Under the pieces are notes generated by a model. The model saw nothing but the letters and a program-made list of their open reading frames with translations. It was not told where the DNA came from and ran no database searches. Shown one piece after another: positions 2,182-38,914 of a stretch of 64,000 bases of DNA (its first letter is position 1; every line of letters starts with the position of its first letter). Both the position numbers and the translations under genes were made by a program. This DNA comes from Diadema setosum (taxonomy: Eukaryota > Echinodermata > Echinoidea > Diadematoida > Diadematidae), in contig NC_092689.1 of assembly GCF_964275005.1 (NCBI RefSeq), positions 6,152,700 to 6,216,699 of the forward strand, written 5' to 3'.

Positions 2182-2420
2182 GACTAATACGAGAATTATT
2201 TGCAGATCTCGCCAAGATGAAAGTGTCCTTGAACACTGAGCAAGAGACACATTTGAGTACACAGCTACGGAGTTTCCACCATAGAATAGTCAATCACCCA
2301 GCCGTATACGAAAAAAGGGTGGCCTTCTCAAGGGACAAGCTTGACCATTTGGACCCCGGTTTCTCAGGGCTATCACCGGCATCAACGAGGAAGACGGACC
2401 TTGCATTACACAGAAGTAAA
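2182..2420 (+). CDS. Gene A prodomain exon
   Basis: Open across 239 nt: two bases complete a split codon, then 79 codons. The polypyrimidine tract TTTCCTTTTCTTCTAG precedes it and the donor is AAA|GTAAGT. The residues KRVAFSRDKL about two thirds along match RRIAFSKVRP at the same place in gene B, and both have Pro-Ala several residues before. No cysteine is present, as expected of a neurotrophin-type prodomain. The last residues, HRSK, run directly into AKRS of the next exon to form the processing site. Confidence 0.85.
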
Positions 2421-5400
2421 GTAAGTGCGTCTCGGGGTGCAACATAAACAGAAAGTTGTAATGAATTGATAAAATAGCGAAGAGAAGGTTACGGGATCAA
2501 AGTGTCATGCGTATAAGACCGTCAAGGATTGGAATTTCCATAATACACTAGTTGTAGTATGTCCATCAAGAGACATTATCACAGTATCGTTTCCGTCAGC
2601 AAAAAAGCAGATGCCTATGGCGCACCGTTTGCCCAAAAATTCCTAAAACTTCGTTTATCAGTCGAAAAACTTTGAGAAACTGATATAGAGACCTAATACA
2701 GAGCGATAAAGTAATTTTATCGATAAACAGTATTCATCAAATAAAAAAAGCGGTATATCAAATGAAAAACTAACTTGATCGTATGCAGATGGAAATTACG
2801 GAATATATGAAATTGTGAAGTTTCGCCAATAATTTGTTCACAACACCTAGACATTTTCCGAGTGTGTTTTGTTTGTTTCGCTTTTTGTTCAAACGTAATA
2901 TGCTCCAGCTTCAAATCCTAATACATCTGACTGATCATTATTTTGAAGTTCCGTCAAGAAAAACATTTTACGCCTACATTTTGCACTTCTATAGCAGAAA
3001 AATAATTGCATTTTCGTTAGTGCTTTGTACATGATCAATAGACAGTTTTGAGGTAATGATACGAAAAGCTCACTCACATCTATATCATGTGTCCTGGGAA
3101 CTGCCTAAAGGCCTTGTCACACCTTTCCGGGCAAGCCTTGCGTGCGACATGCGAATAACAATTTTTGCTACCCGAAAGTCCCCGCAGATATCCCGCACAT
3201 GACAGTACCTAGCACGTATCTCACCCGTAGTTACCCGGAGTTGCGCACGCAAGTCCTCTTTACTCGAAGCCAAGTTTTGGCCCTGTCACACCTTTCCGGG
3301 CAAGATACGTGGGCTTAATACGTGTAGGGAGTTTAGGGACTTGTATTAGCTTTACTGGCCTTTAGTATTGAAAGTTTTTAAGATACATGATATGAGTAGT
3401 TTACAAAAAGCTATTGAATTTTCAAGTTTGAATATCATGAAATTATTCCCTTTATACAGTATTCTCTCATTTCTTGGCCTACACAGGCTTGACATGAACT
3501 TTTTTTCTCTGGTTACCAGTTATATGGTGGTCAGTTCGTGCCATGAAAATTTTTAAATTCTGAAGTTTTGGTGGCCTAAAAAAGAATGTAAAGGTCATAA
3601 ATAAAGAAAAATATATTCAAAAAAATCATTTGTAATCTTTTGTCCTTGATCTGGCCACCAAAATATAGGTTGTTGTTTTTTTTTTAATTTGGTGGCCCAA
3701 CGTCAATTCCAGTGACCCCGGGCCACCAAGTCACTGCTATTTTGTCGTGTCCTACCAAGCATATCGTATTCATTACCAAATCATTTCAAACAAATAAACC
3801 TTGTGTCTTCAGACAAATAAACCTCGTGACCTCCTTTTCAAAGTGTGTGAGAAATGTTGTGAAATCAATACGTAATGAATTAATCATATATTTTATTTCT
3901 TTAATGTATACTGGGTAATTGTAAATTTCTTTATATTCATCGCCTAACCTAATACCTAATATATAGATGCTAAAACACACTTTACGGGCACCGTTTATAT
4001 GAAGAAAGTAGATCAATTATGGGCTTCATCTAGAGTTTTCACGCTTTCAACTCGTGCTTTTTGTGTCAACACTGGCAAACATTCTGTAATAGAATACAAT
4101 TCTTATTACTCATTAATCATATTAACCTACAAATTCAGAATGTATCCCTAGTTAGATTAGATATCTTTTATCCATTTTAGGGGTAAAAGTTTGTTTATGC
4201 AAAAAAAAAAACAACAACAACACGCTAAATGCATTTAAATGAAATGAATAGGTCCTGAAGAACAAATAATCATTATTAATCTGCATGATAACTCTTTTGG
4301 GTCTCAAACCAGTCAGACATCGTGGTTCTGACGTGTGGAACTCATTGGCAGGCATACTTTATATCGGAAACAACACTTCATTTTTTTTCTAAAAATCTTC
4401 AGTACAAACATACATATTGAACTGACACTGACTGATGTCTGACATAAGAATTTGAATACAAAATGTTTCATTTGTGTTTCATAATTATACCTGAATTGCA
4501 ATAAATAATCCTTGAAGATTTAACAAAAATAACAATATACATACATTCATACATCCATCCATCCATACATACATACATATATAAATATAATTAAGAACCT
4601 TTGGGTGGCCCATGCACATTCACACACAGGTCAATGCACTTTGCACGATTATCCGCACAACATTTTCCATTTTGTTTTCTCGTTTCCCCTCTCTACAATA
4701 CCCCATTCCCAGGCCATCATCATTTCAAGCATACGCTTAACATTGTTTACGGTGTGCGATCTGGTGCATTTCTCCTTAATGGGTGTTCCTTTAATTTAAC
4801 ATTGATTAGTTTTCTTTGATAAAAAAATAGCTGTTTAAATTGTGTTTTCTTTTTCTCTTTTATTAAAAAAAAGACTTGTTTACATTGTGTTCTGTGGACA
4901 GTAAGGTTGAAAAATATTTTTCAATAATGTTATTTTGTGCTGAAATGTTAAAAATGCAGGAAAAAAGCCAAACAAAAAATGAGTTGAAAATTGTGGTTAA
5001 AAAAAAAAAGAAGAGTCGAATTCTAAAGACGGAAAGCAGCTTTCATCTTATATCAGCAAAACACTCACCCTGTGGAACATCCACTCATTAAGGTGAAGAC
5101 GAAAATGTATAGGAAAATTCCACAGTGCCCTTGGCATTATGACTACTAATGACGTCAGTTAGTAGAAAAAGACCTCAACAAACCAGGTCTATGCTGTCAG
5201 AAAGAAGAAACTACTGGAATCCAGAGATTTCAGGTCTCCTTGAGCACCGTGACGGGACTGCAAGCAAATACTGTAACGACGCCTTTAAAGGACAAGTTCA
5301 AATTCATATAAATTCGAATTGAGTGGATGCAGCAATAACAGCAGAACACATCTGTGGAATTTTGGGGAAGACAGGACAATCCAGTCAAAAGTTATGAATT

Positions 5401-7236
5401 TTTAAAGTTTCTGTGCAGTCACTGCTGGATAAGAAGACTACTACAGTTTATGATGTCACATACGGAGCGCGATATAAGTAGAATATACAGAGAATTTCAC
5501 AAAACTAGACTTTTTGAAAAAAAAAAACACTTTTAAAGTATGGTAAAGGTAATATTATTCCTCCTACCTTTTGAAAGAGGCAACTCAAAGGCTCTTTTTT
5601 TTTCCATGCGAGAAAAGTGAAAAATATGTTGAATTTTCTTTATATTTTCATATCGTTCTACGCACATGACATCACAAGCTGTATATAGTAGTCTTCTCAT
5701 CCAGCTATGGCGTCACTCAAAGTTTAAAAAAATTCACAACTTTTGAACGGATCGTCTGATTTTTCTCAGACATTTGTTGGTGTGTTCTACTAATATTGCT
5801 GCATTCTTTTAATACATATGTATATGATATCATATATGTATATTAAGGTGAGCCTGTTCTTTATGTCTCAGTGAACTTTGCTTCCTTTTTTATCCACGTG
5901 GTACTGCATTGACCTTCTCCTCTCATTTTTCTGTTACTCGTTTCTAGGCTAAACGTAGCATGGAAGACACTTGCCCATCGCATCCGCAATGGAAGATTTT
6001 GGAGTACGGAAATTTGAGAAATGGAACCAGAGTTACAGTTTACTCGCAGACATACTTCTACGTAACAGAATGTCTCCATAACAGGGGGAGGGCCTGTTAT
6101 CTTGGGGTCAATGCTCCGTGAGTTGAAAGTCTTCATTGCTATAGCTAGTTCTTTTCTGCTTTTGGGAGAGAGAGAGAGAGCTTTATTTCGTTATTCCTGT
6201 TGTTACATCTAGAATTATCACTGTCATATGAGAACAAACGAATCTTATTGAGTCAAGTTCAAATTTAGAAGCACTTGTATGAATGAAATTGGAGCGAAAC
6301 TTGAAATTATAAAGTGATGCCAAATGTTCATGTATCGTGTCATGATATTAAGGCAACCAAACAAACAAGCACATAAATGAAAACAAAAAATAGACCGAAA
6401 ACATTTAGGCCCAAATTCTCAAAGCTGGAATAACTATTCCGCGGAATAGTGTTGTTCCGGGGAATAAGTTATTCCACCTTTGAGAATAGATTTCGGGGAA
6501 TAAATCGCGTCATTTTACGTCACGAGGGCCTGATTTGCATAAGAGGCGTAATAAATCGGCGGAATAAGCGGTGTAATAAAGTTATTCCACCTTTGAGAAT
6601 TCGGGCTTTAGAGTGTATTTGTGCAGGGCGTTGTGGCAAAGTGATCAATGTAAATGTAAATTGAGTGTAGAAGTGTGAACACGAGCAAAAGTATAAACAC
6701 TCGATGGTAAATGTCAATATACGTATAAATAAATAGATAAACGTAATCAGATTATGGGTTCCTTGGGTATCAAGTCGACTACTTCTTGTAAATGTTAAAC
6801 ACTTGCAGTTTTATATGGAGTTTAAAAAAGATATATACGCTTTACTTGCTGTCGTCACGAGGGCTACTGTACTGAAAATAGAATATAGACGGATGAGTTA
6901 ATTGAGAGAGTTCAGTCACGTCGGTCCAGTGTTCCTCACAATTTCCAGTTTGTAAAATGCCTTTCAAAACGACAATGAAGAAAATGTTTCCTAGGAATAA
7001 AAGTATTTCACATTTGAAAAGAATAGTGTTACATCAATGCATCAATATTCTTCTGCCAATTTGCAACTTAATTTACTTATGTTTGATATGTTTTCAACAG
7101 TTTGTTCATCGGGTCTACGCAATGCAAGCAGAAGAAAAGCTGGGTTTCAGCATATGTCAAGCAGAAGAATTCCTTCACGTACGATTGGGGCTTTATCAGC
7201 GTTCCTACTTGTTGCAGCTGTGCAATAAGGCGATAA
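2182..7236 (+). CDS. Gene A: neurotrophin/Spaetzle-like cystine-knot growth factor precursor (three 3' coding exons)
   Basis: Predicted secreted dimeric ligand. Exons 2182-2420, 5948-6117 and 7101-7236 join as phase 1 in, phase 0, phase 2, with good splice signals (TTCTTCTAG / AAA|GTAAGT; TTTCTAG / CC|GTGAGT; TTTTCAACAG). The prodomain has 80 residues, then Lys-Ala-Lys-Arg followed by Ser, a furin-type site. The mature chain has 98 residues with cysteines at 6, 39, 47, 62, 91, 92 and 94. Neurotrophin-like landmarks: YFYVTEC (compare YFFETKC of NGF), KKSWV after cysteine 4, and a Trp nine residues before CC-x-C. Spaetzle also ends in CC-x-C with similar spacing, so family placement within the superfamily is open. 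The start codon and signal-peptide exon are not identified; the exon before 2182 must end in phase 1 and may lie left of the window. It is paralogous to gene B, convergent with it. Confidence 0.9.
3105..3330. repeat. Dispersed repeat with duplicated 'TGTCACACCTTTCCGGGC' block
   Basis: The block occurs twice in direct orientation (about 3117 and 3283), each followed by CAAG, around a 'CCCGCA/CCCGTA/CCCGGA'-rich centre. It lies in intron 1 of gene A and looks like overlapping remnants of one dispersed element. Confidence 0.55.
3560..3732. repeat. Inverted 'TTTTGGTGGCC' repeats
   Basis: TTTTGGTGGCC at 3565 pairs with GGCCACCAAAA near 3652. A second pair (TTTGGTGGCCC near 3689, GGGCCACCAA near 3720) follows. 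Likely a degraded foldback element in intron 1 of gene A. Confidence 0.5.
4538..4582. repeat. (CATA)n/(CATC)n tetranucleotide repeat
   Basis: Runs of ACATACAT, CATCCATC and CATACATA in intron 1 of gene A. Confidence 0.85.
5280..5818. repeat. 'GACAAGTTCA' repeat family, copy 1
   Basis: Starts AAAGGACAAGTTCA and includes ACATCTGTGGAATTTT, GGACAATCC, GTCACTGCTGGATAAG and a mirrored second half (AACGGATCGTC, TGTTCTACTAATATTGCTGC), so the ends are inverted. Related copies are at 44772-45290 and 62097-62228. Short frames inside it are noise. It lies in intron 1 of gene A, just before the mature exon. Confidence 0.75.
5948..6117 (+). CDS. Gene A mature-domain exon 1 (cysteines 1-3)
   Basis: It begins AKRSMEDTC and ends in phase 2 inside a Pro codon. 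It carries the basic cleavage site, cysteine 1, a Trp six residues later (QW), the strand NGTRVTVYSQ, YFYVTEC (cysteine 2) and GRAC (cysteine 3). The C1-C2 spacing is 33 residues, identical to gene B. C2-C3 is 8. Confidence 0.9.
6408..6613. mobile_element. Palindromic MITE with TTA target duplication
   Basis: Left end GGCCCAAATTCTCAAAG, right end inverted GCCCGAATTCTCAAAG. The trinucleotide TTA flanks both sides, the TWA pattern of PIF/Harbinger elements. About 205 bp, in intron 2 of gene A. Confidence 0.75.
7101..7236 (+). CDS. Gene A last coding exon (cysteines 4-7)
   Basis: One base completes the split Pro codon, then 44 codons and TAA. It contains QCKQKKSWVSAYV and FISVPTCCSCAIRR before the stop. 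The ending corresponds to FIRIDTACVCVL of mammalian NGF, with one added cysteine before the C-x-C. No clear AATAAA is seen close downstream. Confidence 0.9.
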
Positions 7237-9757
7237 CGACAGAATGAAAAGGACATGCAGTGGAACCTGATACGTCTTAATTCACAACGTTGCCATCAGA
7301 TCTTTTGGTGTTTATCTTTATAATGAAATCATGGGAAAACGTTATCGAGTAACATTTTATTTCATTCTCTATTTTCATTCTTGGATCCTCAGAAAGTATA
7401 GAAAATCGTCGCACGTTGTATGTTCTAGTTATGATAATAACAACACAACGTCTAGAGGCCAACATACAATAGTTCTGCGAAAAATGTTCGTTGGCGATCT
7501 TTCTAATTCCATTCATATTTTCTAAAAATATTTTCTAAAAAAAAAAATCGCTCTAAATGTCTACCAAATTGTAGGAAATTCTTCCACTTTTGTTTTCATC
7601 GCGTTATCATTGAGAATTAACAGAAGATTCTTTTTATTTTGTTGTTGTTGTTTTACAGTAAATCACCCCCTTGTGACTTTCCGTTGCTTCTTTTTCTGCT
7701 TTTCTTTGCAGCTTTGATGCGATGGCCTTTGTTCTGTTTTCCAGTTCCTTCGCTTATTAGTGTACTCTGCATGAAATTATCTTAATATATTCTGCTTCTG
7801 ATTGATTCTAAATATGTATATTTTATAATGTTATGTTCATATTAGCAATCATGTGCTCGTAAACATTCAAATCGTTTGTAGTGATTGCCTATGGGCGGTC
7901 TCTTTCCCTTACCGTTTAACAATGCAACAAGATATGCCTTAAAGATTCCTAAACGATATTTGTGGTGTGGTCAGTGCGTATAGATAGCCCCGTGTTATAT
8001 GTTTTGCTACTAAAACCCCCAGTTTTTACACAATATTTTGGTCGGTGACAGTTCGTCAAATGAATTTATCAGTATTATGCCACGCAGGAGGCTTACGATC
8101 ACCTTAAGATTCAAAGCTGTTTGGTTGTTTGATGGGTAGTTGAGGGCTTCGTTTGGGAAGTTTTCACATTTTGTTGGATGTCATGTTAATATGCTTGCAC
8201 TCAAAGTTTATCACGATGTTCTCCATAATTTGCATAAGGCACGTTGAAGTATACTGTATTATCGGCATGTTTGCTGTTAACATTGGTGTGAAAAGTCACA
8301 TTTATTGTATCAGTCATAGGATACAATTAATCAAAAATATTACTCCTTGTCTGGATGTTGACTTTGAAATGTTGCCGATTGAACGTTACAGCTTCCAATT
8401 AGTATCAAAGACTCACTTTCATCGCCTTGAAAAATGCAAACAAGCAATCCATTTCAGATGTCTGTGATCTTTTTACTCATTTCATGTTGCTATGATACCG
8501 GTATAAAGCTGTATTTTAGTGTCACAATTTATATGTCAAAATAAATGTCAAACTGAGACAGGGTATATGTCTTTCTCTATCTCTGAGGGGTGTTACTGTT
8601 GTGAAATCAATGATACATTTTGTCTCAATTATGCCGTAATATAATTCTCTTGTGCGTAGCTCTCGCGGTAATATTGATATTTCTTGAAATATTATATCTG
8701 TGTGGGACAGATAGTAAACTTTTGTCAGAGTTTGTGTCATTGTGCAAAGTCGTTACTAGTTTAAACATGAAGTAGCTATTTTTTTTTTTAAGTCAGCGGT
8801 GAGAAATCAATAGGCTGGTGATCCTGAATTAATTTCAACTCGACTTTGTTAGACATTCACTGGCGGAATGCCAGTCATCTCAGATAATAGTTCATGTTTA
8901 ATGTTTACAATATGAAACCCATTTGAATATCTCTGCAGCACTTGTTTATCACCGAAGACCTTTTTCTATGTGAATAAAATTTGATGACATTTTAGCTAAT
9001 TGTGACAGAGGTCAATAATGACCATGGGTACTTCGCATTGCAGGTGTGCAGTGGTTTTTGCAAACGACATTACTCTTGTACGTGCTTGTATAAACTGATA
9101 TATATATATAAATATATACATATTCTTTATCTATGTACATGTAAATAATTTCCGATGATAGGTGGGTGGCATTAGGACGTATATGAACGGAGATTGACAA
9201 AATCATCTTGCTTTTCTTTTCCAATATGATGACTGCTTGACACAATCCATGACAAGAACAGGGTATTTTTTTCTTTTTTCTTAATCATTTTGAATGTGTA
9301 CTTTTGAAAATACAGTCTTTCGCACTTAAAGTGTAAGCGCAAATACAGCAATGCTACTTTAGACGTTCGACTTTTACAATATCATGAGTCTGTTCTTCAC
9401 TGTTTTGAAAAATAATACAAAAGTCTTTGTACCTTTCAGTAATAAATCTTGGTAGACATCCGAGAGTCATTAAGTAACTTAGGTATCAGCACGGCTGAGA
9501 ATATGACTTTCACTTTTAATTACTTAACATCAAGATAACTCATACATTGTACACAAATATTTGCACTAGAATTTCTGTATTTTCTTCACTGGTTCTATGT
9601 TGCTCATGAATTTGCAATTATAATACTTGACTTCAATATATTCTTCTTTGTTGCTTTTATCGTGTTTAAGCGATTGGATAATGATGTGTTAGCTGGCTTG
9701 TGTGGCTGTGTTTATTTGTCGTTATACAGTCATTACAATAATGTGTATTCCAGGATG

Positions 9758-9802
<45 letters not shown>

Positions 9803-10680: not shown

Positions 10681-10689
10681 ATCAGAAGA

Positions 10690-12633: not shown

Positions 12634-12636
12634 GTA

Positions 12637-12703
12637 TAATAATAATAATAATAACTATTATTATTATTATTATTATTGTTATTATCACTGTTGTTGTTGT
12701 TTT

Positions 12704-12705
<2 letters not shown>
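12637..12705. repeat. (AAT)n/(ATT)n microsatellite
   Basis: AAT runs switch to TTA/ATT runs and then GTT, directly beside a TA tract. Confidence 0.9.
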
Positions 12706-22256: not shown

Positions 22257-22495
22257 ATTATATATATATTCTCATACATCATATTCATGTCCTTGATCAC
22301 ATCACCACTTACCTGCCAGTGTTCTTGATTTAACTATGACGTTTGAGTGGTGGAAATGATTGATATGAGAAAAAAAAGTGACAGATATTGATGTATGATT
22401 CGTCAAACTTTATTTAGACGTCGACGAGAGTGCAGAACATTATGCTGATGGGTATCTGCTGATGGAAATGGAGGAAGTCAAAAAGCCCGGGAGAC

Positions 22496-24110: not shown

Positions 24111-26808
24111 CAAAAACCGAAATGTTTTTTTTACTTATTTCCGACTATATAGGGTCGGGATTTACTCTGCTCGATACAGTTGCAGGTAAAATACTTTCAA
24201 CATCTACCACGATATCTTACAGACGCAAAGTTCATGCTAATAGATAAGTCGTATACATGAAACAATCAGAACATAGTCTTTTCTTATTTTATGAAGGATG
24301 GCTCCACTAGTGAAACACCCTATGTTGCGATATATCATATGGCGGAACGTGAAAACAATAATAACGACTGTTTAATCCTGATTACTAGTAGTGATACTGA
24401 TAAGGGCGTACATCGTTATAGCATGTAAAAGAGAAGGCGATGTTCTTAAGTCATAACACATTCTTTTCATTTTTGGATAAAATATCCTTGAGAGAAGGTC
24501 ATTTAGCTCACTTTATTATTTTTTTTTACGAGAAGTGTATGGTATTACCATAAGTGCTTCTTACTATTTGGGTTACAAGTCGATAAAACCTTACGGCACC
24601 GCACGTAATAGGAGGTTGGCGATAGGAATCTTCGTATATCTCTGCAGCCTTTGGCTTAAATGGAAGAAAAAGAAAGCTTCTTTATTTATCTGTTGTAGAT
24701 CCGCATCAGATTAAATGTGATGCATAAAGGAGCAATCCATAAATTTCTAATTTCTAATTTCAAGCTGTCTATTAATGATCTTGGGCAAGTTGAGATCGAA
24801 GGGACGGAATAATTCCTTTTCTCTTTTTAATTTGTAACAGTTATACGTCATTAACCTTTCAATTGCTGGGTGAGTTCATTTTTTTTTTTAATTACTGTGT
24901 TCACATCTTTATTACTTGATATGCTTCACCCTTTAACCTTCGGATTCCATTGATGGAGACCTTGAGATGCACTTCGTAATACAAGTCCACAGTCATACAT
25001 TCTGGACGGGCTAATTCCCCATACTTTCGTCTGGGTAGTCAGTCAGATGAGGTGTCCCAGAATTGAGAAGTGACGTAGCCAAAGGTCACAATAATCCCGC
25101 AATTTGTTATTCTTCAATTTGAACAACTAAGGAATTACCGAGGTAAACACTGAGGGGAAAAAACGTCATGGTGACATACTAAGCATTGAGTGAGAGAAGA
25201 ATCAACACATTTGCTCTTTAATTGTTCGTCGTTATGCTGAGTTACAATATTTTCAATCATTTAATATGCATATTCTCCGCTTTTTCCGTAATGTGAAGAA
25301 ATTGTCGAAGGCTAGGGGTAAATCGCGCTGCTTCTTAGAAGATTCAGAAGTATGGATTTGCTGTGAATCTGAAGTAATGAGTGGGACAAGGTTTGTCCTC
25401 CTTTCGAAGAGGGTTCATCCTGTAGTGAACTGGCCGAGAAAGACGAAATACGATAGCATCAGAGGGATGACTCTACAGACTGTCGTCAAACATTCGTTGG
25501 TTGGTTTCCTTCTCTTTGTGAATCACTCACGTATCAGTGCCCCTTGACTCACATCTTTTAAATTGTTTCTAATGTTATATTGAACATGTAGCCAAAATGC
25601 TGATTATATTCTTAGTGATTTTTGGGGGTTGTTTTTTAAAAGTAATTAAGTAGTTCATACTTTCCCTCGATATCTCTAAATTTTGATCTCTCAATTTCAC
25701 TTGCATTTCTGATTTTATTTCTCAGATATCAATTACTCCTTATGCAACTCTTTATTCATTCTATTGCCATAAGTCATCAAACTATGACAGTAATGTCGGG
25801 GAAGATTATCTTTTAATATCTCAAACGAATGGTCTCTCACCCATGATTACAAATGTCTTCTTTTGTACATTACTTTAGCTCGATCTAATGATTGTTCAGG
25901 GACCTTTTTTTGTCGCAAAAACTCTTTCTTAAAATCTACAGTGACAGCGTAATTCATTGGGTACAATGAAGAATGTGTCTGCAATTAAAGAAGACATTTG
26001 AAAATGTAATTTAGCGTAAACAAGAGCTGATGAATTTGACAAAATTGGCAAGCGCTTAGTGACATGACATGAACTTTTGTCTGTCAATGCGTTTCAAGCA
26101 GGGTGGGGGGGAGGGGGGCTGGTACAGGCGCGGCAAGGGGAAGTGATCTTGCCACTTATAATTCTGAAAATTCACAAAGTAAGAATTATCAGAAACTGGT
26201 TATTTTCTCATAGAAATAGGTAGAGATAAGGTCTCCCACTTGAGACAGGATGCCACAGACTTACACCCATTGTGAATCCCACGCACTCATATTTTGTATG
26301 GATGTATGAAGTGTGCACATACTTTCCAGGGTCTAAACATTTGCATCAAGTCGTCGCCCATCCGGCAGAAGAGCCTTAAGGCTTTGCGCTCTGGACAAAA
26401 AGAAAAAAATCAAAGAAAATTAATGGAAACATCATATGACAGAGCCTTTCAAATCTCTGTCGAATTATGTCACAAATCAAAGTTCGATTTTTCTGTTGTT
26501 GTTGTTGTTGTTGTTGGCGTTGAAATATCGCTAAAAAGTCTAATACACCGAACTTTTCTCATTAAAAGAATTGTATTTTTAGAGTGCAAGTCTGCGTCAT
26601 TAGCTTATCATAACAATAGGGAGATTATGTATAGAAGTATTACGCACAGACTTGCAGGAATTGCACGACTAATTAGCTGTCGTAAGCAGTCATGATAGTC
26701 TTTTCGTATTCTTCTGTAGCACGTTGGTGACCATGGAAGAAGATGCGATTTTAATTAGCTCATAGCGCAACCTTCCAAGATCATTTCGTTGTGGGTTATT
26801 AATTTTGG
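24111..26808. other. Intergenic region between genes A and B
   Basis: No repeat family recognised apart from (GTT)n at 26496-26517. The open plus-strand frame at about 25297-25545 is discussed as a possible decayed paralogue of genes A and B. Confidence 0.4.
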
Positions 26809-27126
26809 TCAAGACGTGTCATTAACCGCGCACGCGCAGCACGTTGCCAATGCGATATGTCTCCAGCGATAATCCGTCTCGTCCTTCACTCGCGCCCAGG
26901 CGATTACCCAAGATTTCAGCGTGATGCACTTCGAGTACGCTGCGTCCGTTGCCGTTGAGGGCGTGGGGAATCCATGACAACGTTGGCCGTCCTCCATACA
27001 GCTGGTCTCCCAGAAAAATTGTCCACTACTCACTTCCACTTGCTCGTTTTCCACTGTGATCCCATTCGTCAGTTGAACCCATCCACTAACAGATTGACAG
27101 GCTCGAACATATTGATTTTCCTTGCG
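26809..27126 (-). CDS. Gene B mature cystine-knot exon
   Basis: The acceptor is strong (GGTTCTTCTTCTCGGTACACAG). The exon has 105 codons plus TGA, begins RKENQYVRAC and carries all seven cysteines. Spacings are 33, 7, 17, 29, 1 and 2. Compared with human NGF (43, 10, 12, 28, 2) the first loop is shorter and a seventh cysteine is added. It is noticeably GC-richer than flanking DNA, as expected for a real exon. Confidence 0.93.
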   Translation of the reverse strand, partial: RKENQYVRACQSVSGWVQLTNGITVENEQVEVSSGQFFWETSCMEDGQRCHGFPTPSTATDAAYSKCITLKSWVIAWARVKDETDYRWRHIALATCCACAVNDTS

Positions 27127-27876
27127 CTGTGTACCGAGAAGAAGAACCAGATAGAAAATGAGATACAATCGAACCAGACAATACAGTAGTATGATTTCAC
27201 TTATAAAAGGGAAAAAAATGCGTAACTGGGACACAGCTGCACAAGAAATAGAAGGAAAGAAAAGTTATCACAAGAGATATGAATACACAATCAGACTTTA
27301 AAAATGACCTAGATGGGCTAACTTCACATGACCTAAAAGTTATCGCTAGCATCAGTAGGGCTATTGTCGTGAACAATCATGGGGGCTTTCTATTTTTCGT
27401 AAGTGTGCATTTAATATCTTGCCATATTGCCATTACAGAGCAAATTGCCCCGAAGTCCATTCTGCATCCTGATTTTGATTCTTTTTTTTTTTTAAAGACT
27501 GAAATCATGAAGGTAGCCTGAGTTTGATTTAGACAAAGTAGGCCTACCCATGCGGGAAGTCACATAACTCGCACACCCATATAAGTATACTTTATCATGT
27601 TCTTAATCATGCACTCAATACAGTTCGCTTGAGTGAGGCAAGTTTTCTGGGCCGGCACAACCGGGGGCCGGGGGCTCGCTCGGCCCCACCCCACTTTCCC
27701 TCCCCTCCCCCCCCCCCCCCACCCCGGAAGTGGCACCGGAGAAATGGGGTAAAGCCTGTTTTTCTTTTCTTCTTCTTCTTCTTCTTCTTCTTCTTCTTCT
27801 TCTTCTTTTCCTCCTCCTTTTTCTTATTTTATTTTGCATGTCAGCTGATTAAGTAGCGCCAGAAAATTGCGCCCAA

Positions 27877-27921
<45 letters not shown>

Positions 27922-30900
27922 GGGGGGTGGGGACTGGCTTATCAAAAGTGGCACCAAAAATATAAACTGCCCCCTCTTTCCTCCTATTAAAAACGCAGCA
28001 CTGGCACTGGTTTTATAGTTTTGACTAATGCATGAACAACTCATAGGAAGCGATGATATTCCCTCTCAGTCAACAGCACCTCTGACTTCGAACCTTCGGA
28101 TCTTAAACTCTAGTGACCTTCTAAACCGCGTGATCTTTCTATGAATTCCTCTAAGAAGCTCTACCTTAAACACCCTCAGGTACTGCTCTTTTGCGGTAAG
28201 CTCGATGAAATCTGCACTCTGGTCGGGAATGTGTGACGGCCTGACCTTGGAGAAGGCGATCCTCCTCATGTTGGCTTCGCTCATGGCGGGCATCTCCAGA
28301 ATGTCGTAAATCGTCATGCCGTCCGGTAGATGGCGCTCTTCCGGTGGGATGTCAAGAATGTCATGGAACGGCTGCGGCACAGTGTCTCGATTGATGCTGT
28401 CTGCTCGAGAGCGCTGTAACAGTTCGCAAAGAGGGTGTTATGAAAGGGTTTTAGTCAGCTTGGTTCATTTTTCTTATTGACGGTGGCCTATATACAAGCA
28501 TTTGCTCTAAACTTAGAAGATGTTTTGAGCAATTTATACATAAATCTGTGAAATTGAAATTACACTCACAGACACGCACACACACACACACATAAGTCAC
28601 AATTAGAAATCATGGTTGTTATGAGGACACGGTCAAATCAACCATGAATTGAATGTTTCAAATACTCGTCAATTTGTGTCATATAATCATTGAAATGGCA
28701 AAGAGTATTTTAAAAGAGACATTTTGCACCATCTGATTTATGTAAATTTCAGAACATGTAGATTTCCAAATAATAAGTTCTTACGCATGTTAATCACATT
28801 CAGTTCAGTTCAAAAATACTTTATACAATGTAATTCAATTCAATCTTATCTTATTCCCACCCAGCAAAATGTAGTATATACATATTTTTTGTGTGTAAAT
28901 TTGACAAGTATTGATATTGTTTAAAATCAAGTCATGAAGTTCAGCATAAAATGTGTTCGTGAATGATAACATAACAAGAGAGACAATGCATAAAGTCCAA
29001 GGGTGACAAAAAGGTAAAGATAAAATTTGTAAAAAGAGTGATCTTCTAAAACGAAAAGATGTATATCAGTTGATAAACAATATGCAAATAACATATTTAT
29101 TCAAAACTTGTATATATGCAGCTAGAACATTAATTTTGTCAGCTGATATTATGTATGAAAATAATATATTGTAAACAATACTTATTTACATAATTATACA
29201 CATATACAATATGCATATATACATCTACACTCACAAAAATGTTCAGACAAAAAAATGCAGTAACGCAGTGTTGTAGCAAGAACAAACAACAAAAGTGACA
29301 TCACAACACCACGAAGAATGAGGAGAAAGGAAATGGAGTAGAAAAGAAAGACAAGAAGTCTGTATGATAGAACACACCACTCCATCGCCATGACAGGTGA
29401 AAGCAAGAAGGTCATGACAAAAAAAAAAGCAATTTGATTATCCGAAATCGGCTGAGAATAGGGCGTAATGCTAGAGTCACACACGGTCGGATTTCGTACC
29501 GGGTCCATAAGGATATTAAAACCGTATCGACCCGATTCGAGCAGTAGAGACCCGCATTGACCCGCATCGTAACCCGTGTCAATTGCTTCTTCAGCATTCC
29601 TTCCCATCTCCTGCATTTTCGTAATTTCAGAATGGTTTTTTTTTGTGTGCTTTTTTCTTTTTCACCTTCTCATTTGTATATCTATAAATTCCACTTATCA
29701 TATTTTGTAATATTCACATATAGGAGCCCTATATGTATTTATATTTTATGTGGAAGGAAAAATGTATTTACAAGTTCTGTTGGAGATGGAAAAAATAAAT
29801 GAAAAAGAAAATGAAAAAAAAAAATCATGGTGGATTCCGGGGGCAACGATACGGCGGTGAAAAAGTTTTGGTCATGTTCAAAATTTTCTCACGGATTTCA
29901 ATTCCGTATTGATATCCGAATTGACCCGGTTCGAACGGCATTGACCCGCATCGACCCGCTGCAACCCGCAAGGTAAAACAGTACGGACCCTTGCCGGATA
30001 CCGCATTGCCTTCATGCAACGGATGATGACAAGGTTTAGGGTCGGGTCGAAGCGGGTTGACACAGGTCGATAGGGGTCGAAAAGAATTCAATTAAGGATT
30101 TATTAAGCGGATTTTTATACGGTTCGATATGGGTCTATACGGGTCTCTACGGCTCGAACCGGATCGATACGGTTTTAATTCGTTATGGACCCGGTTCGAA
30201 GTCTGGCCGTGTGTGACTGTAGCATAAATTACCTTCCATTCCGGCACTAATCCGGCTCATTTTCAACCGGATCAAATCCGTTTTGTGACCCGGCCGTGTT
30301 TGACTCTAGCATTAGGGTGCCTCGAACACTTATAGGGCTTTAGCGGAAACTTAACGCCCTTATCATTCTCATCCGACGCATGCAGTTGAATGTTGTATGA
30401 AGAAGGCAAATGCGTTCTTCAGTTTGCATTAATATGCAGTGAACCTATATAGAAGATCGTTTCAAACTATTATTTAAGATATTCCAAAATCTGGGTTCTG
30501 GTTTAAAGGAGACCTCCGGATGATTTTCAGATTTTTACATTTGAACAGCTATAAATTATTATACTGAGTACAAAGTTTCAGAATTTATGATAATTGGGAT
30601 GAAGAATAAGAATATTTTCAAAATTTAGAACAATCGGAATGAACAAGGATTGATGACATAGCAGATTCACCATAAGAATGCATGAGTTGGGGCTCAAGAA
30701 AGCAGAACAAAAGAAGAAGACATGCATAGATTATAAACTCGTAACCAAGCGGTATTGTTGTAATGGAATTACGCTGCTACATTTCTGAAATAATTATGTG
30801 AGCCTCCTATGTCATCATCCGTCTTCAGTGTAATTTGTTTAAGGTTTTTCAAAGTATTGTTTCTCTGCTCAAGGACCACAATAAATTCCACAAATCTATA

Positions 30901-33787
30901 CATGGAGTTGTCGATTTATGTACTACATGATGTGAAATATTATGAAAATTGTCTGGAATGCTCTTTAAACATAATGCATTTTGGCTATATACACACACTT
31001 CTCTTTAGGGAGATGTAATTCATAGGATCGTTGCGTGAGAAAGGTTTGTATTGTTTTTGTTTTTTGTTTGTGTTTTTGTACTTTGGTAGTGCTGATTCTG
31101 AGTACAAGATGCATTTTTACAATATTCACAGGGCACAACGAGTGAATCAGGCGCAATTGTAACCTTCAAAGTAGCAACTGACCAGAAGATACATGTGCAC
31201 ATGAGCATGTAACGTAAAATACTACCCTTCCACCCAAAAATATGCCGTGCTAACAAACCTCTGGAATAACGAATCTTATTTCATAATGGGATTAACGAAC
31301 CTTCGGAATAACGAACTGTAACCATAATCATGAGAATAGGGTGTGAAACAAAATGCTCATACTAAGGAATGTCAAGGAACTAACGAATGAATCTTGTAAT
31401 TTGTGTGTGGGTGTGTGTGTGTGCGCGCGCATGTGCGTGACTCAGTGTAAAGATCTATCCCTCTATCATAATCTGAATTATGCGGATAACATTAGTGGTA
31501 AATTCGGAGCGGGACTGCAGCATACTCACAAAAATCTACGCTGATATTATCTGCACTATTATGCACATCGTGGCGAGGGACTTGGAGTTTGAGAAAGCAA
31601 TCTAGAATAAGGTCGAAGGTGCGGTCAAAAGGTCACATTTTTCCCGCACGCAGTATGAGACGGGCGTGTGCCCTTTTTCATAGCGATTATCCGTCTCCAA
31701 CTTTCAGGCTTATCTTTTTTTGTGTGTGCATTATTTTCAGAATTTGTGAATTTCTATTGAATTGACCGCATTACTCTTATGCGGAGACTTTGGGGATATA
31801 TTATTGTGCAAGGGGTATAATACGTAGATGACTCTTTGAGAGCTCCGGATGGTTAGAAAGGCAATAGTGTTCATGATTTATCGGAAGGCTTCTCATTCCG
31901 CCAGATGCGGATTAAATGATAATCCAACGAAATCTAGGATAAGATCCATCAAGCTCATGTAGCACGACTGAACTGGGATTAAGCCTGCATGGCTGGTAAC
32001 CTACTTCACATGCACTACACTGCTATACATTTAACCCACCAAGTCCTGGCAGAAAATTTTCGCTGAAATTATCAGCCTATCATCATTAAGTTGGCAACAC
32101 TAAATTCTCACTGACATACTCCGTATAGGGGAAAACTTACAAGAGACAAATTTGAATGCATGCAATCTGTCCAAAGCATACTTATTAATTATTATATCTT
32201 GTCTCAGCAATTATATAAAAAAAAGTCTTGGGTTTGTTTGTTTGTTTTCATTTTCCAATCGACACGATGGCTAGACTGCCCACATTCAACTGCACGAGCT
32301 GGTCTTCCATCACTGTCCATAGGGGGTGGGGCAGTTGTACTTGAGGCGGGCCAATTCACCGGATAGTTCACCCTGCTCCTTGCCATGAGTGACTAAAGCA
32401 AGATTTTACACAGGACCTCCATTCCATGTCCAGCTGAGGGCCAGAGTGTTTTGCCTCCGCTAGTGGGGACTTCACGATGGCACACAATATATTGCTCAGT
32501 AAGACTCACTTGGATTCGAACCTGAGCAATTCGATTGAAAGGTAGATGAGCTAAAGACTGACCTTTGCCGTCCTACAGTAACAACAAGGAATTGTTTGTT
32601 TGTTTTTTAAGCAAGAGCAGAGTAAATACACACATACATACACACACAAACACGCACACATACACACATACTGTTATATATCTATAAATGTAATTGTGTA
32701 TGTTGGCTGGGCAATCAGAAATATCTTTTTTCTACTCTAAGCTGAGGAATACATGTTAACGTGATAATCTATTTTGCATGACATGAAATTAATGTAATCG
32801 GAATGTAGTCATTCAAAGATGTGAATGTCGGTACATACAACTCCAAGTATGCAATGTCATTTTGCCTGTCTGTTTATAAACGAAATGGGAATGACCGCAG
32901 CAGCTACGAAATGCATTAAAGAAGATCATCTAGCCGGCGCCACGGGCGTCCCATGTTTAACACGCTTGACGAAGCTCTAACGTAGTGACATCGCCGATCT
33001 AATCTTTTCTCAAACCCTCAAAATAACGCCACCAATGACACAGATACGATCAGTAAGACTAAATATGGCGAGCTAATGACATCTTAATGCGTTCCGGAGA
33101 TGTAGAAGCATCTCCAACACCATGTGGTGATTAGATTTATCCTTTTCACAAGTACTAATGAGGAATACATGCAATCGAGTGGGTTTTTTTTTTCTTCTTC
33201 TTCTTCTTCTTGCCGACAGTTCACATATTTCAGCCGAACTTCCTTTCAAGTAAAATATTGTTATATGTAAAGGACACTTCCTCTTCAGAAGGGAACGTTA
33301 CACAAAGATAGGCAGAAATTTGCTCTTTCTGCTTCAACCTTTGCATTAATAGTTGCTATTTTTGTAGCAGGGGTAAAACAAGGAGGTATGCATAACAAAA
33401 TGAAGGGAAGACAGTACACAAGGAGGAAGAGAACGTGCTGACCCACATTCGGAGAGGGAAAAATGCACCAGGACTAAACTCTCTACATCATAGTCAACAG
33501 TCTAATCGAGCAAAATAAACAAAGTTTTTTTCAAGTTTGAAAAAAAAAAGAATGTCATCTCACATCTCGAAAATAATGTTTATTGGTCATTGCCTCAAGT
33601 AATACGTATAAAAAGTAAAACAATTTTTTATATGAAAAAAGAACTTCTCATAAATAGATTTAAGTCTTTTTACCATTCATCACAAAAAGAAAATGCCCCC
33701 TTGGGATTGAATTTCATACTGTTATGTAATAACAATGCCCATGAAATGAGTCGATTAACCGTAAGAAGAGATGGTAGCTTTTCACTC

Positions 33788-33829
<42 letters not shown>

Positions 33830-36800
33830 ATGATCAAAGTTTGAATGACTCCGATAGCGGTTATTACACAACTGTCGAGTTCAATGCACTGATAAAGCAA
33901 AATATATTTCAATCATTTCTTGATTCGTTTAGTCTTCTTCACATCGATGTCAGAAGTTTGAATAAGAATTTTGATTCTATAGAATCATTTCTTTCCTCTT
34001 TACAAAACTTTCAGTTTAGTATAATTGGTATATCAGAAACATGGTCGCCACCAATATTCAACATAGAGCATTATCGAATATATCGTTCCGATCGTTACTT
34101 GGGTAAGGGAGGTGGGGTTGCTTTCTACATTGAAAATAACATTGATTTGAAAGTCAGTCATGATTTACATATCGAGGGTACTGAAGATATTTTTGTTGAA
34201 ATTCTGAACAGTAAAGCAAAACATATAATAATATAGGTATTACATATAGGTCCCCAAGAAATAATATTGATTGTTTTTTAGAAAGTTTTGATCAAATTTT
34301 GAGTTTCTCAAGTCTCAGTCAGCCTTGACCCATACAAAATGTTGTTCGACTTTTTCCATTCCCTCCCGTTCTTTTCTTTGATCATGACTTTACAGTGGAA
34401 CTTATTTGTATATTACCTTTCAGTAAAGCGCATACCTTACCCCCAAAATATGCGTACTATAGCATTCTTTCTCTCTTACACTGTCACCTGCACACACGAC
34501 GCACTCTCACTCTCACACACCTATACTTCTATTGTCTATTATATCAGTAGTCAATGGTGCTGCGTGCTTTTTTTGTTCTCTCTAAAGCGCCAAGTCACTG
34601 TTTTTCTTTTCCGATATTGTTTTTTTCTTTAGCAAAATGTGTTTCGTGTATGAAGATAAAGAGTTTTATGAGTACAGGTACGTTTGGTGTTGTATTATAT
34701 TCGTATTACATATACAGATAGGGCCTCATCCACGTCAAGCTCTGCTTATGATGACGGTCCCCTGTAATGATTTCTTCTTTGTTCATAAATACAGTATGCC
34801 TTAATATGTTGTTTTGATTCATATGTCATTACAGACTGATGTTGTTATGAAAATGACATCTCTTATATTGATTTGTATGTCAAATTTTCTTTTTTTTTTT
34901 TGCATACTCTGTATTACTTTGTGTTCATTTGATATTGCATTTGGAAAAAGAAAATGCAGAAATAAACCAAATCAAACCAGAACCAATTTGTATGATCAAT
35001 CATCTATCTATCATTCAATTTTGTGTATTCCTTATTCATTACCTCCGCCAAGGAAGGAAGCTGTGTTTTCATCGGCGTCTATACCCTCCACCAAGGAAGG
35101 AGGTGATGTTTTCATCGGCGTTTGCTTGTTTGTTTGTTTGTTTGTTTGTTTGTTTGTTTGTCTGTCTGCCTGTGTGCAAAATAACTTCAAAATGTTGTGG
35201 ATGGATTTTGATGAAACTTGCAAGAAAAGTTGATGATGACACAAAGAACAGATGATTAAATTTTGGTAGTGATTCGGGAGTTTTCATGGATTTTTGAAGG
35301 GATTTTGATCATTTTGCAGATAAAGTCAATGAATTTGGGAGTTCAACCTGCGCGAACACGAGCTCTAAATTGCGTGCTCTGCTCGGGCGAGGCGCCGCGG
35401 AGCTGGAAGCTGATGACGTAAACAAAAGGCTTTCAAATTGGGAAATTAGTCGCTCGACGGAGATCTGCGCTCTCATTGTGTTTTTCTAGTTCAATTTGTT
35501 AGTTAGTTTGTTAGTTTGTTTGTTCGTCCGTGTGCAAAATAACTCAGAAAGTTGTGAACGGATTCGGATGAAACTTACAGGAAAGGTTAAGAATGACACA
35601 AGGAACAAATGACTAAATTTGATAGTGATATGCTCAGTCTGAGAAAATGAATTGGGTTGCTGAATATTTTGACCCCTACCCTAACATACTCTAGCACATA
35701 GAAGTGAATGGATAATTGCATGTTAGTGAGATTTCATGCAGATAAGATGGTTTTGTGGAAGGCAAATGCTCCAAGATGTGCCTTGAATAAATTATGCAGT
35801 TCCCAATTGGCAGAAACTCTAAAAGTTTGGTACATTTTCAAGGATAGTATTCTCAAAGATCTATTTCTATCTAATTATCTAATTTTCACTTAAAAGATTT
35901 GATATAGTGGAACAAAGAAGTTAGTCTGAAATACAAGCCATTTTCTTCTACCCTGGGTGGTTTGAGAAGGGAATATGTACCATAGATGACTTAAGAGTTT
36001 GTGGTGATATTGTACAATCCTTTAAGGACTTACTAATTGAATTTGATAAATCAATAAGAGATAGAAGAAAATATAACTCTTTGATGAATGGTATATGCCT
36101 CAGATGGTTTGATGTATCAAAGACAGTTAATGAAAACCTATTTGATAAGAAAGTTTCCAAGTAAGCTTAGGCCCTATGCAATGTTGAGAAGTTCTCAGGA
36201 ACACTTATGTGAGAAAAAAGTAGGTAAATGGAATGAAATATTAGAAGTTGACAATGAGATGTTAACTTGGTCGTCTCTTCATTAAAAAGAAAACCAATTG
36301 TACGATTGAGACTCAATTTCGTTCTTTTTATTTTTCTTTTTTTATGAGACAATATTTCTGAATGCCTTTTTACACAAAATTAAGAAAAAGGACAATCCTA
36401 ACGGCTCATTATGCCGCCAAAGCCCAGAAACAACTCTCCGTTTATTTTGTCAATGCCCGAAGGTTTTACCCATATATGGCAAAAGTTATCTAATTTTATT
36501 AATGAAAAGGCAAAGAAAACAAATACATTTTCAGTTTTTACATGATGTTTGGAGTAAATAAAAGCTCAGAGGCAAGATGCATGTATAGACTTTCAATTTC
36601 TTTGTTTGAAATTTTATATTTACAGGTGCAAATTCCAAGAAGTATAATATATAAGAAAAATACCTTTTTTTTTCGGGGGGAGGGGAGCCTGGGTAAAATC
36701 TAAGCAAAAACAAAGTAGGCTTATATAGGCCCTACTAGATAGCCCGAAAGAGGGGGATATTGAGAACCCACCTTGAAATATGGTCCGTGTTCTGTATAGA

Positions 36801-37635
36801 TTAATCCCCTGTATGAGAATAACAGTTACTTTGGAGAAATTTACAAGATGCACTTTTGTTGATAATATGTTCTGTGATTGGTAGGTGTATGTGCTACATG
36901 TTTGAAATCACAAAATGTATGGTTGTACATGTACATTCATGCCCCATGATTTTGTACTGTAATCTTTGGTATATGTTTACATAGTTTACATACATTGTAT
37001 ATACGTTTCAATAAATACAGAAAGAGAAAAAATATAGTGTTCCTGGAATCTTATGGATTTCATGAAGGATTTTCGATATTTTGGCAGATAGGGTCAATGA
37101 ACTTGGGAGTTCGAGCTGCGCATTTTTTAGGTTTACATACGTGCACTAAAGTGCGTGCAATATTTTGCTCGGGCGAGGCGCCGCGCAGCTGGAATTTGAT
37201 GACGTAACAAAGGTTTCTATATTGGGAAATTGGGCTATTTTCAGCATTGATTGGAAATCACTGATGTCATTTCGAGAACAAGATCAGTGGTGGAAAGAGC
37301 TGCTTGGCGGAGGTCTGCGCTCTCAGAGTGCTTCTCCAGTTTACTCATGCAGTCATCCGGGAAAGTTATGTTAGTATTGTTACGGAGGTTAACTTGGCCT
37401 AACGAACCATCATGACCACCAAAAATACCCAGACTCTCAAACAAGGTGTTTGGTCGATGTCGGTCATCTTGTCGAACTCTTTATTTACATATTCCTCCGC
37501 GAAACAATAAAGTGCCCAGAAATGATAGTGCAATGCACATGTATCTATGTTGATATATGAGTATAACCTCATATTGCATAACCATTCCCTGAATAATGTG
37601 ACATTTTTGTTGTTTGGCTCGTGTTTAATTATAAC

Positions 37636-37686
<51 letters not shown>

Positions 37687-37724
37687 TATTATTATTATTA
37701 ATAATAATAATAATAATAATAATA

Positions 37725-37775
<51 letters not shown>

Positions 37776-38105
37776 TGAATATGGAATTCACCCATTTGTC
37801 AAAGAAGACGAATTTACTGATAAGAGATTTGATTTTTTTAAACAATACAGACACTATCTTTTTTTCATCTTACCTTCAAAAACGTCCGATGTTCACTATG
37901 CGATGCATGCACTGTATCAGGCATGAGTAACCCGAACAACAAATGCAAAAGAAAGGAAAACAAGACTGTGTGTAACCGATATGAAATAATTCATTGATTG
38001 ATATGTCTAAAGCTGCACCTCTTTGAACTTTTATGACAGGTTTTCTCACCTTTTTCACTTTCCCTAAAAAAAAAAAAAAGGTATAGAGGTTATGATTATA
38101 ATATG

Positions 38106-38166
<61 letters not shown>

Positions 38167-38914
38167 TAATAGTCATATTTGTTACTTCTTCGATTCATAA
38201 TTCTTAGAGTTTTCTTTAGAATGGTAAAAGTAACATAATCAATATTCAGAGTGTTCAAATTTAAACGAGATTGTTTTATTTTCACACAGATATCAGTGAG
38301 TCAGTAATCAACATGCAGTATATACAGATTTTTGAAAAAAGAGTTGGACGGTTTTAATTAATAATGTTATACCACACAGCCATGCATGCAAATCATAATA
38401 GACTTTCTTTGTACATTTTGTTTTTTCTTTCAGCAGTAAACACAATGAAACATAACACAAAATATTGCCCGTCGCTACATGCAAATTTTCTACATATATC
38501 ATACAGGCCACTACCACAACGTGGTTTCAGCACTTCAACGATTTTGAATCTTCAAAGGTTACACGTCTCACAGATTATCAACCCACTCGAGCTTAACGAG
38601 ACCCAAAGTTCAAAAGTCTATGGTTAATAAGTGTAAAGAGTAATCAGTGGCATATTTACGTAACACAGAAAAACAATTTATCGTTTGACATGGATGCAAA
38701 CTCACGCGTATCGGACGAATGTTTAGGATATTTCCTGGTCTCTCTCTCTCTCCCCCTCACTTTTTCTATTAGATGAATGAGTGACTTTATGTCTACTGCT
38801 GTTGGACAATAATTGGTAGGAAGATGAAAAAAAAAAAGAAATACAACTGAAGGGATTCTTACCTAACATGAAGCAGACAACGATGTACAGCTGATGGTGG
38901 ACAGTCATTTCCAT
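26809..38914 (-). CDS. Gene B: neurotrophin/Spaetzle-like cystine-knot growth factor precursor
   Basis: Predicted 201-residue secreted precursor from three exons on the minus strand: 38914-38863, 28400-28165 and 27126-26809 (introns of 10.46 and 1.04 kb; phases 1 and 0). Residues 1-17 are a short hydrophobic signal sequence, 18-96 the prodomain, 97-201 the mature region. Cysteines of the precursor lie at 106, 139, 146, 163, 192, 193 and 195. Landmarks: CQSVSGWV (NGF CDSVSVWV), FFWETSC (NGF YFFETKC), KSWVIAWARV after cysteine 4, and YRWRHIALATCCACAV (NGF AAWRFIRIDTACVCVL). An N-glycosylation site, Asn-Asp-Thr, is at the very end. No strong furin site is seen; only Lys-Arg-Lys formed across the exon junction. 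The mature domain is intact and in one exon, unlike gene A. Confidence 0.92.
27640..28000. mobile_element. GGCGGATCC-family relative with microsatellites, intron 2 of gene B
   Basis: Shares the GCACAACCGGGGGCCGG, GGAAGTGGCACCGG and GTGGCACCAAAAATATAAAC segments with the 47224 copy. It has been expanded by (CTT)n at 27766-27808 and (TC)n at 27882-27917. The terminal GGATCC words are lost. Confidence 0.6.
28165..28400 (-). CDS. Gene B prodomain exon
   Basis: The acceptor CTCTCGAGCAG gives two bases that complete the Asp codon left by exon 1. The donor AAG|GTAGAG is the phase-0 donor that fits the next exon. The exon has 78 further codons, starting SINRDTVPQPFHD and ending EQYLRVFK. The RRIAFSK motif matches gene A. 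The frame stays open to 28066 beyond the chosen donor, so a slightly longer exon is possible, but later GT sites are out of phase with the mature exon. Confidence 0.8.
28401..29460. other. Gene B intron 1, proximal part
   Basis: AT-rich sequence with a short (CA)n run at 28570-28592; no exon or element recognised. Confidence 0.4.
29467..30316. mobile_element. GACCCG-rich TIR element(s)
   Basis: Left end TAATGCTAGAGTCACACACG. An inverted match, TTATGCTACAGTCACACACG, closes at about 30228 after more than 100 bp of arm similarity (ACCGGGTCCATAA, TTAAAACCGTATCGA). A second inverted end, CTAATGCTAGAGTCAAACAC, closes at about 30316. The interior is full of GACCCG / CGGGTC words. This reads as one element plus a second, partly deleted one. 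Confidence 0.8.
30317..32240. other. Gene B intron 1, middle part
   Basis: No repeat family or exon recognised; a GT/GC run lies at 31406-31436. Confidence 0.4.
32250..32580 (-). mobile_element. tRNA-derived SINE, minus strand
   Basis: On the minus strand the head reads TTTAGCTCATCTACC (A-box-like) and, 25 bp on, CAGGTTCGAATCC (B box), as in RNA polymerase III promoters. The GC-richer body then extends to about 32300. It is a different family from the SINEs at 41960 and 61262. Confidence 0.6.
33787..33830. repeat. Poly(T) tract
   Basis: About 39 uninterrupted T, just before the LINE endonuclease fragment. Confidence 0.95.
33841..34330 (+). mobile_element. LINE endonuclease-domain fragment
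   Basis: The frame contains LLHIDVRSLNKNFDSIESF, IIGISETW, YRIYRSDR and GKGGGVAFYI, the first motifs of the APE-type endonuclease of non-LTR retrotransposons (L-N-x-R-S-L...T-E-T-W...R-x-G-G-G-V). The frame stops at 34236, and YRSPRNNID continues it shifted. Truncated at both ends. Confidence 0.85.
34331..35040. other. Gene B intron 1 segment with no recognised element
   Basis: AT-rich, with CACTCTCAC-like runs near 34505; no exon seen. Confidence 0.35.
35042..35640 (+). mobile_element. 'CCTCCGCCAAGGAAGGAGG' repeat with internal GTTT microsatellite, 5' part
   Basis: Contains a short tandem of the CCAAGGAAGGA block, (GTTT)n at 35124-35160, GCAAAATAACT, GATGAAACTTGCA and GCTCGGGCGAGGCGCCGCG. 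A second partial copy (GCAAAATAACTCAGAAAG) starts near 35500. The missing 3' half resumes at 37040. Confidence 0.75.
35690..37030 (+). mobile_element. LINE 3' fragment inserted in the previous repeat
   Basis: Broken frames read WFEKGICTIDDLRVCGDIV near 35955, KLRPYAMLRSSQ near 36165 and CRQSPETTLRLFCQCPKVLP near 36410 (a Cys-rich C-terminal motif). This resembles the end of L1/Tx1-type ORF2 proteins. It ends with AATAAATACAGAAAGAG near 37010-37025. It carries several stops, so it is old. Confidence 0.65.
37040..37348 (+). mobile_element. 'CCTCCGCCAAGG' repeat, 3' part
   Basis: GGCAGATAGGGTCAATGAAC, CTCGGGCGAGGCGCCGCG, TGATGACGTAACAAAGG and GCTTGGCGGAGGTCTGCGC continue the element that begins at 35042. 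The shared stretch (GGGAGTTC..GGCGCCGCG) lets the two parts be aligned. Confidence 0.75.
37634..37776. repeat. Alternating (AAT)n/(ATT)n microsatellite
   Basis: Blocks of AAT, ATT, AAT and ATT follow each other, so the tract is self-complementary at long range. Confidence 0.95.
38110..38164. repeat. (TA)n microsatellite
   Basis: Pure TA run in the distal part of gene B intron 1. Confidence 0.95.
38863..38914 (-). CDS. Gene B first coding exon (signal peptide)
   Basis: Seventeen codons beginning MEMTVHHQLYIVVCFML, then a perfect donor TTAG|GTAAG in phase 1, the phase the prodomain exon requires. The hydrophobic core is short (about 9 residues), acceptable for a signal peptide. The link over 10.5 kb rests on phase and hydrophobicity only. 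Confidence 0.55.

Follow-up and report, generated by a model that had tools for sequence, protein, structure and literature searches.

Two seven-cysteine neurotrophin-like genes on a Diadema setosum chromosome that also carries a canonical neurotrophin gene

Where the neurotrophins and Spaetzle parted, and whether both began as one gene, is open. A stretch of 64,000 nucleotides from the sea urchin Diadema setosum, referred to here as the window (C5:6152700-6216699 of a genome of 912,680,840 bases in 102 contigs, C5 being contig NC_092689.1), harbours two genes, A and B, that each encode a domain with seven cysteines. To which of the two families do these genes belong, and how did the pair arise? 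The initial annotation had described them as paralogous ligands of the neurotrophin superfamily in tail-to-tail arrangement, and its observation was confirmed overall. The anatomy of the genes, their family, their paralogues and the location of these are established here from the sequence. The same chromosome also carries a canonical neurotrophin gene and a third seven-cysteine gene, gene C (Table 1).

Structure of genes A and B

Gene A is encoded on the forward strand and gene B on the reverse strand, and their 3' ends are 19.6 kb apart, which bears out the tail-to-tail orientation. As had also been described, a prodomain precedes the cysteine domain in each gene, the prodomains being situated on separate exons. 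Three exon joins had been predicted per gene, and the window allows two. The donor of the gene A cleavage-site exon is weak (TCC/GTGAGT, score -0.5), and the last exon of gene A matches gene B in an unspliced tblastx comparison (E 4e-7).

Table 1. Exons of genes A and B (positions in the window) and related genes on the same chromosome (positions on C5)
Feature	Location	Strand	Remarks
Gene A, prodomain exon	2182..2420	+	Phase 1 in, phase 0 out; KRVAFS; open frame flanked by acceptor and good donor
Gene A, cleavage-site exon	5948..6117	+	RSK/AKR, then SMEDTC; cysteines 1-3; weak donor; recovered by search of its own genome with A
Gene A, last exon	7101..7236	+	Cysteines 4-7 (TCCSCA) and stop; preceded by phase-2 intron
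Gene B, candidate first exon	38863..38914	-	ATG, hydrophobic stretch MEMTVHHQLYIVVCFML, strong donor, phase 1; weak
Gene B, prodomain exon	28165..28400	-	RRIAFS; start 28400 (phase 1, like A) or 28413 (phase 0)
Gene B, mature-domain exon	26809..27126	-	Seven cysteines (TCCACA) and stop
Canonical neurotrophin gene	C5:6668572-6668883 (frame 1462-2415 of extracted locus L001)	-	Six cysteines; ~0.48 Mb from B
Gene C	C5:30333416-30334767 (L023:1486-1727 + 2735-2840)	+	Seven cysteines; ~24 Mb away; found with B as query

Gene B possesses two firm exons, for the prodomain and the mature domain. The span 38914-26809 originally given to this gene holds for these two and is weak at the candidate first exon, because chance is expected to give such candidates; a scan of both window strands for first exons yielded five in phase 1, this one among them. 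For gene A, a scan of window positions 1-2181 revealed no convincing signal-peptide exon, and a scan of the 10 kb upstream of the window, as far as these are not N, no convincing first exon. Three first-exon candidates are present in those 10 kb, one of them in phase 1 and poor, none convincing. The signal peptide, with none found for gene A and a weak candidate for gene B, counts against the account of secreted precursors given below.

Both prodomain exons contain the motif R[VI]xFS. In the canonical gene, SQRVAFSVERP aligns with SPRVLFSTQPP of proNGF (PDB 3ij2, which we take to be the mouse protein). The motif was detected in 2 of 287 window frames of at least 60 amino acids, exactly A and B, and three times among the 1070 frames of at least 33 amino acids, and it appeared in 284 of 100000 shuffles for A and 292 of 100000 for B, figures that are partly after the fact, since the motif was spotted in A, B and the canonical gene before it was recognised in proNGF. 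By score alone, the likeness of the prodomains to that of the canonical gene is weak, being reached by 15 of 500 shuffles for A and 30 of 500 for B. The prodomains of A and B compared with each other gave 2 of 500 shuffles, and 4 of 2000 with the short or 25 of 2000 with the long form of the B exon. The prodomain region of the canonical gene, searched alone against the PDB, found no match.

The donor of the gene B prodomain exon is preferably at 28165, and 28087 is possible (rough scores 1.4 vs -1.1). The motif stands 38 residues from the first cysteine in A, and this distance is 43 for the canonical gene; in B it is 37 with the donor at 28165 and 63 with that at 28087, so that the former, which gives a distance close to the other two, is favoured. 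With this donor the cleavage site of gene B is poor (VFK/RKEN, lacking RxxR), which counts against our account; donor 28087 would yield a good site, RFRR. Gene A has a good basic cleavage site.

These gaps in the gene models, namely the first exon of gene A that was not found, the weak cleavage site of gene B and the one weak donor of gene A, would suit copies that are decaying or unexpressed, one or both. We regard such decay as improbable, since the frames of A, B and C remain open through all cysteines at roughly 30 to 45% identity, a state in which unconstrained copies so old would hardly stay, and since the intron phases are consistent.

The window also contains exons similar to the mitochondrial Oxa1 family (51640-57545, forward strand), presumably COX18-like, the first of which matches Pfam 60KD_IMP with 14.4 bits, below the cut-off of 35. 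Two pieces on the forward strand resemble retrotransposon relics, one without a Pfam match (22463-22939) and one with a weak endonuclease match of 17.2 bits, the cut-off being 24.5 (33778-34236). A tRNA-like sequence (48203-48269, forward strand; Rfam 36.9 bits) lacks a clear anticodon and is perhaps a tRNA-derived repeat. A near-palindromic element (6410-6610, forward strand), noticed by eye, is located within the second intron of gene A.

The seven-cysteine domain and the relationships of the genes

The cysteine steps first reported from the raw sequence, 33/8/15/29/1/2 for A and 33/7/17/29/1/2 for B, were found again on spliced A and on the single exon of B, and leave 32/7/14/28/0/1 and 32/6/16/28/0/1 residues between the cysteines, respectively. 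The six knot cysteines are in order in both domains. The landmarks of nerve growth factor described at the outset are also present, including a tryptophan six residues past the first cysteine, a second cysteine that closes YFYVTEC in A and FFWETSC in B, SWV after the fourth cysteine, and a tryptophan eight residues ahead of the first of the final three cysteines. The mature domains of A and B are 32% identical, and their alignment score of 123 was reached by none of 2000 shuffles.

The canonical gene encodes 317 residues in a single open frame with a hydrophobic start and RRRR ahead of the mature part, and scores 89.2 bits with the NGF profile in the genome search and 86.8 bits as a protein. 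Gene C, with cysteine steps 33/14/13/30/1/2 and the end NCCSC, matches B in the genome search with an E of 2e-12. With the NGF profile it reaches 18.9 bits, below the cut-off of 27, which counts against our account. A prodomain of gene C was not found, and the 9.5 kb upstream hold one signal-like candidate, in phase 0 (L026:6460-6513).

Counts of copies from the genome searches are lower bounds, the scoring having covered the best candidates only. None of 14 control genomes matched the NGF profile. Bindin, a sperm protein not known outside echinoderms and named in papers on sea urchins and sea stars, matched this genome strongly (193.3 bits), in keeping with an echinoderm; it too was absent from all 14 controls, which says little because NGF behaved alike. 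Further copies were searched with a six-sequence profile (A, B, C, the canonical gene, and parts of NT3 and BDNF) in 7633 pieces from the window, from four loci elsewhere and from the next 200 kb on its right, which end ~250 kb short of the canonical gene. Six matches had E values under 1e-6, each of them an exon of A, B, C or the canonical gene, and the next had 10.6 bits and E 0.24 over the 7633 pieces. Weak genome matches on contigs C7, C17 and C12 were rejected as further copies, showing no knot when read by eye; other weak matches are situated on C18, at C5:18.56 Mb and on C11.

Genes A, B and C have in common a step of 33 between the first two cysteines, which is 43 in the canonical gene, and an extra cysteine adjoining Cys V. 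In all three, an intron of phase 0 precedes the first cysteine by 8 to 9 residues, seen in C on the acceptor side only. Inside the knot, A has a phase-2 intron between the third and fourth cysteines, C has one between the fourth and fifth, and B has none. In a tree of six sequences (A, B, C, the canonical gene, NT3 and BDNF; 138 columns), built without sea urchin or acorn worm NT2, genes A, B and C form a group separate from the other three (FastTree 0.944 and 0.949; UFBoot 93), and B pairs with C instead of with the adjacent A (FastTree 0.986 and 0.985; UFBoot 94). The tree is a modest result. Plain alignment scores are 127 for A-C and 170 for B-C, compared with the 123 of A-B.

The initial annotation had attributed the pair to a local duplication with inversion, and two genes of the same type, 20 kb apart on opposite strands, are what such a recent event would leave. 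However, the mature domains differ in two thirds of their residues, B is nearer to gene C at 24 Mb, and the knot intron of A is missing from B. The two genes also lack common flanks: a comparison of window positions 1-9000 with 25501-41000 detected just one DNA similarity below E 1e-3, an 82-base stretch of simple repeat, and the best translated match was the last exon. A local duplication with inversion is not supported as stated, and we consider a recent one unlikely. The grouping of B with C, the differing introns and the absence of common flanks instead argue that the pair is old. On this sequence evidence, A and B, though neighbours, appear not to be closest sisters, and they probably originated by old duplications on one chromosome also bearing the canonical neurotrophin gene.

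Assignment to the neurotrophins

The Pfam cut-off is 27 bits both for NGF (PF00243) and for Spaetzle (PF16077). With the NGF profile, mature spliced A scores 32.5 bits (E 1e-7) and mature B 28.7 bits (E 1.5e-6), both above the cut-off, in agreement with the membership in the neurotrophin superfamily proposed earlier. The raw frame of gene B reaches 27.1 bits, and B together with its short prodomain 26.3 bits, just below the cut-off. A profile of A and B searched against the PDB returned 20 rows, of which 18 are neurotrophins, including ovulation-inducing factor, which we take to be an NGF, and the other two are a multicystatin and a thioesterase. As single sequences, A matched NT3 best (E 7.6e-4) and B matched BDNF (E 8.5e-4). 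A motif scan of 1070 window frames of at least 33 amino acids, from which low-complexity frames had been removed, found the C-terminal motif in three frames and the N-terminal motif in three, each time A, B and one unrelated frame. Gene B is the only single frame with both motifs, and A has them on adjacent exons. The sequence evidence supports the view that A and B belong to the neurotrophin superfamily.

Diagnostic sites were taken from Wilson 2009 (PMC2772990), with the numbering mapped via the six-sequence alignment and not via the figure of that paper. Trp130 and Ile133 are present in A, B and C, and a Pro13-like residue is present in none of them. Gln44 is Thr in A, which counts against our account, and is retained in B, C and the canonical gene. 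Position 136 is Pro in A, in favour of our account, but Ala in B and Ser in C, which speaks against it; Asn18 is Asn in C, and the nearest Asn of A and B is shifted in the alignment. The vertebrate neurotrophin motif, present in the canonical gene, is missing from A, B and C, which also counts against our account, and is a vertebrate consensus according to the paper; we did not count it as defining invertebrate members.

Arg103 of NGF is a main Trk contact. Its position is occupied by Ser in A and by Ala in B; the canonical gene also has Ala, so that Arg103 does not separate the types.

Similar to arthropod Spaetzle, which has multi-exon genes and an extra cysteine beside Cys V tied to the inter-chain disulphide, A and B have seven cysteines, a CCxCA end and the seventh cysteine beside Cys V, A has Pro136, and A obtains a weak Spaetzle profile score of 19.1 bits. 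Nevertheless, that the two are deuterostome Spaetzle-like Toll ligands and not neurotrophins is very unlikely: the Spaetzle score of A is below the cut-off and B is without a match, NGF scoring higher for both; Spaetzle is absent among the 20 PDB rows; none of the seven genome matches listed for the Spaetzle profile among the best candidates, searched exon by exon, passes the cut-off; the Spaetzle trait of an aromatic residue at 133 without Trp130 is replaced by Ile and Trp, which are neurotrophin states in the part of Wilson 2009 that treats them; and both prodomains carry the neurotrophin motif. By the profile scores, the PDB rows and the genome search we rejected Spaetzle as the family of A and B. 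Four Spaetzle-profile matches on contigs C3, C15 and C24 are weak and near-equal (20.1 to 20.7 bits), each in a frame of 106 residues, and are probably one repeat family.

Proposed products and significance

In the passages of Wilson 2009 (PMC2772990) considered here, two sea urchin neurotrophins are described, Sp-NT with one coding exon and Sp-NT2 with several, the latter having Pro136 and an extra cysteine beside Cys V, which permit a covalent homodimer, and grouping with the acorn worm genes NTa and NTb. The statement of the initial annotation that single neurotrophin-like genes are known from some invertebrate deuterostomes was therefore incomplete and outdated. The relevant part of Lauri 2016 (PMC4812194) repeats the grouping of Sp-NT2 and adds a second gene of Capitella. 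A and B resemble Sp-NT2 in their several exons, in the extra cysteine, shared with C and with NTb, and, for A, in Pro136; Sp-NT2, NTa and NTb are likened here by description and not by sequence, and the Wilson passages mention no linkage of genes. The canonical deuterostome neurotrophin of the Sp-NT type shares with A and B the cystine-knot core, both tryptophan landmarks and the prodomain motif in the form RVxFS, and differs in its six cysteines, its longer first step, its single-frame precursor and the vertebrate motif. Capitella NT1 and NT2 are likewise more than one neurotrophin in an invertebrate, but in an annelid, the second gene being described in those passages as more chordate-like, with no mention of linkage.

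Genes A and B probably belong to an NT2-type branch of the echinoderm neurotrophins, Sp-NT2-like, with seven cysteines and several exons, and would encode secreted and cleaved ligands that form covalent dimers. Each gene would produce a secreted precursor in which a signal peptide (as yet unsecured) is followed by a short prodomain carrying R[VI]xFS, then by a basic cleavage site and the cystine-knot domain, and a protease may cut it at the basic residues to release the mature ligand. Six cysteines would form the knot, and the seventh, beside Cys V, most likely an inter-subunit disulphide like that of Spaetzle, giving a covalent dimer. The parts of two papers that concern this bond place the central inter-chain disulphide of Spaetzle at Cys-94 (PMC9427763) and report that dimers of Drosophila DNT1 dissociate on reduction (PMC2586362). 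By analogy, the dimer could serve outside the cell as a growth or signalling factor for receptors of the Trk or p75 type or on other leucine-rich-repeat receptors. A search for Trk by LRRCT_2 gave one of two listed matches above the cut-off (26.1 bits, E 0.01, in a frame of 934 residues), which was not convincing. Any neural role would equally be drawn from analogy; in sea urchin embryos of 10 to 32 hours, the part of PMC6371548 on expression reports trk in postoral neurons, and neurotrophin and p75 without discernible pattern.

A bolder proposal is that the neurotrophin genes here are one dispersed chromosomal family, that a neurotrophin lineage within it has a Spaetzle-like covalent dimer, and that the seven-cysteine members signal via Toll-type leucine-rich-repeat receptors and not via Trk. 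We hold it to be a long shot; if true, such signalling would connect, in a living animal, that of vertebrate neurotrophins with that of insect Spaetzle.

The seven-cysteine type had been described before, in sea urchin and acorn worm, and the interesting part is the set on one chromosome and its layout. A literature search of incomplete coverage, which does not prove absence, turned up no description of echinoderm neurotrophin genes as a linked set. Since this chromosome bears the compact canonical gene together with three seven-cysteine genes, a single ancestral locus can be tested by comparing gene order and intron positions among relatives. Related genomes could also test whether the compact gene, similar to those of vertebrates, is derived, as suggested in the Wilson passages (PMC2772990), and the four genes and their arrangement could shed light on the origin of the family.
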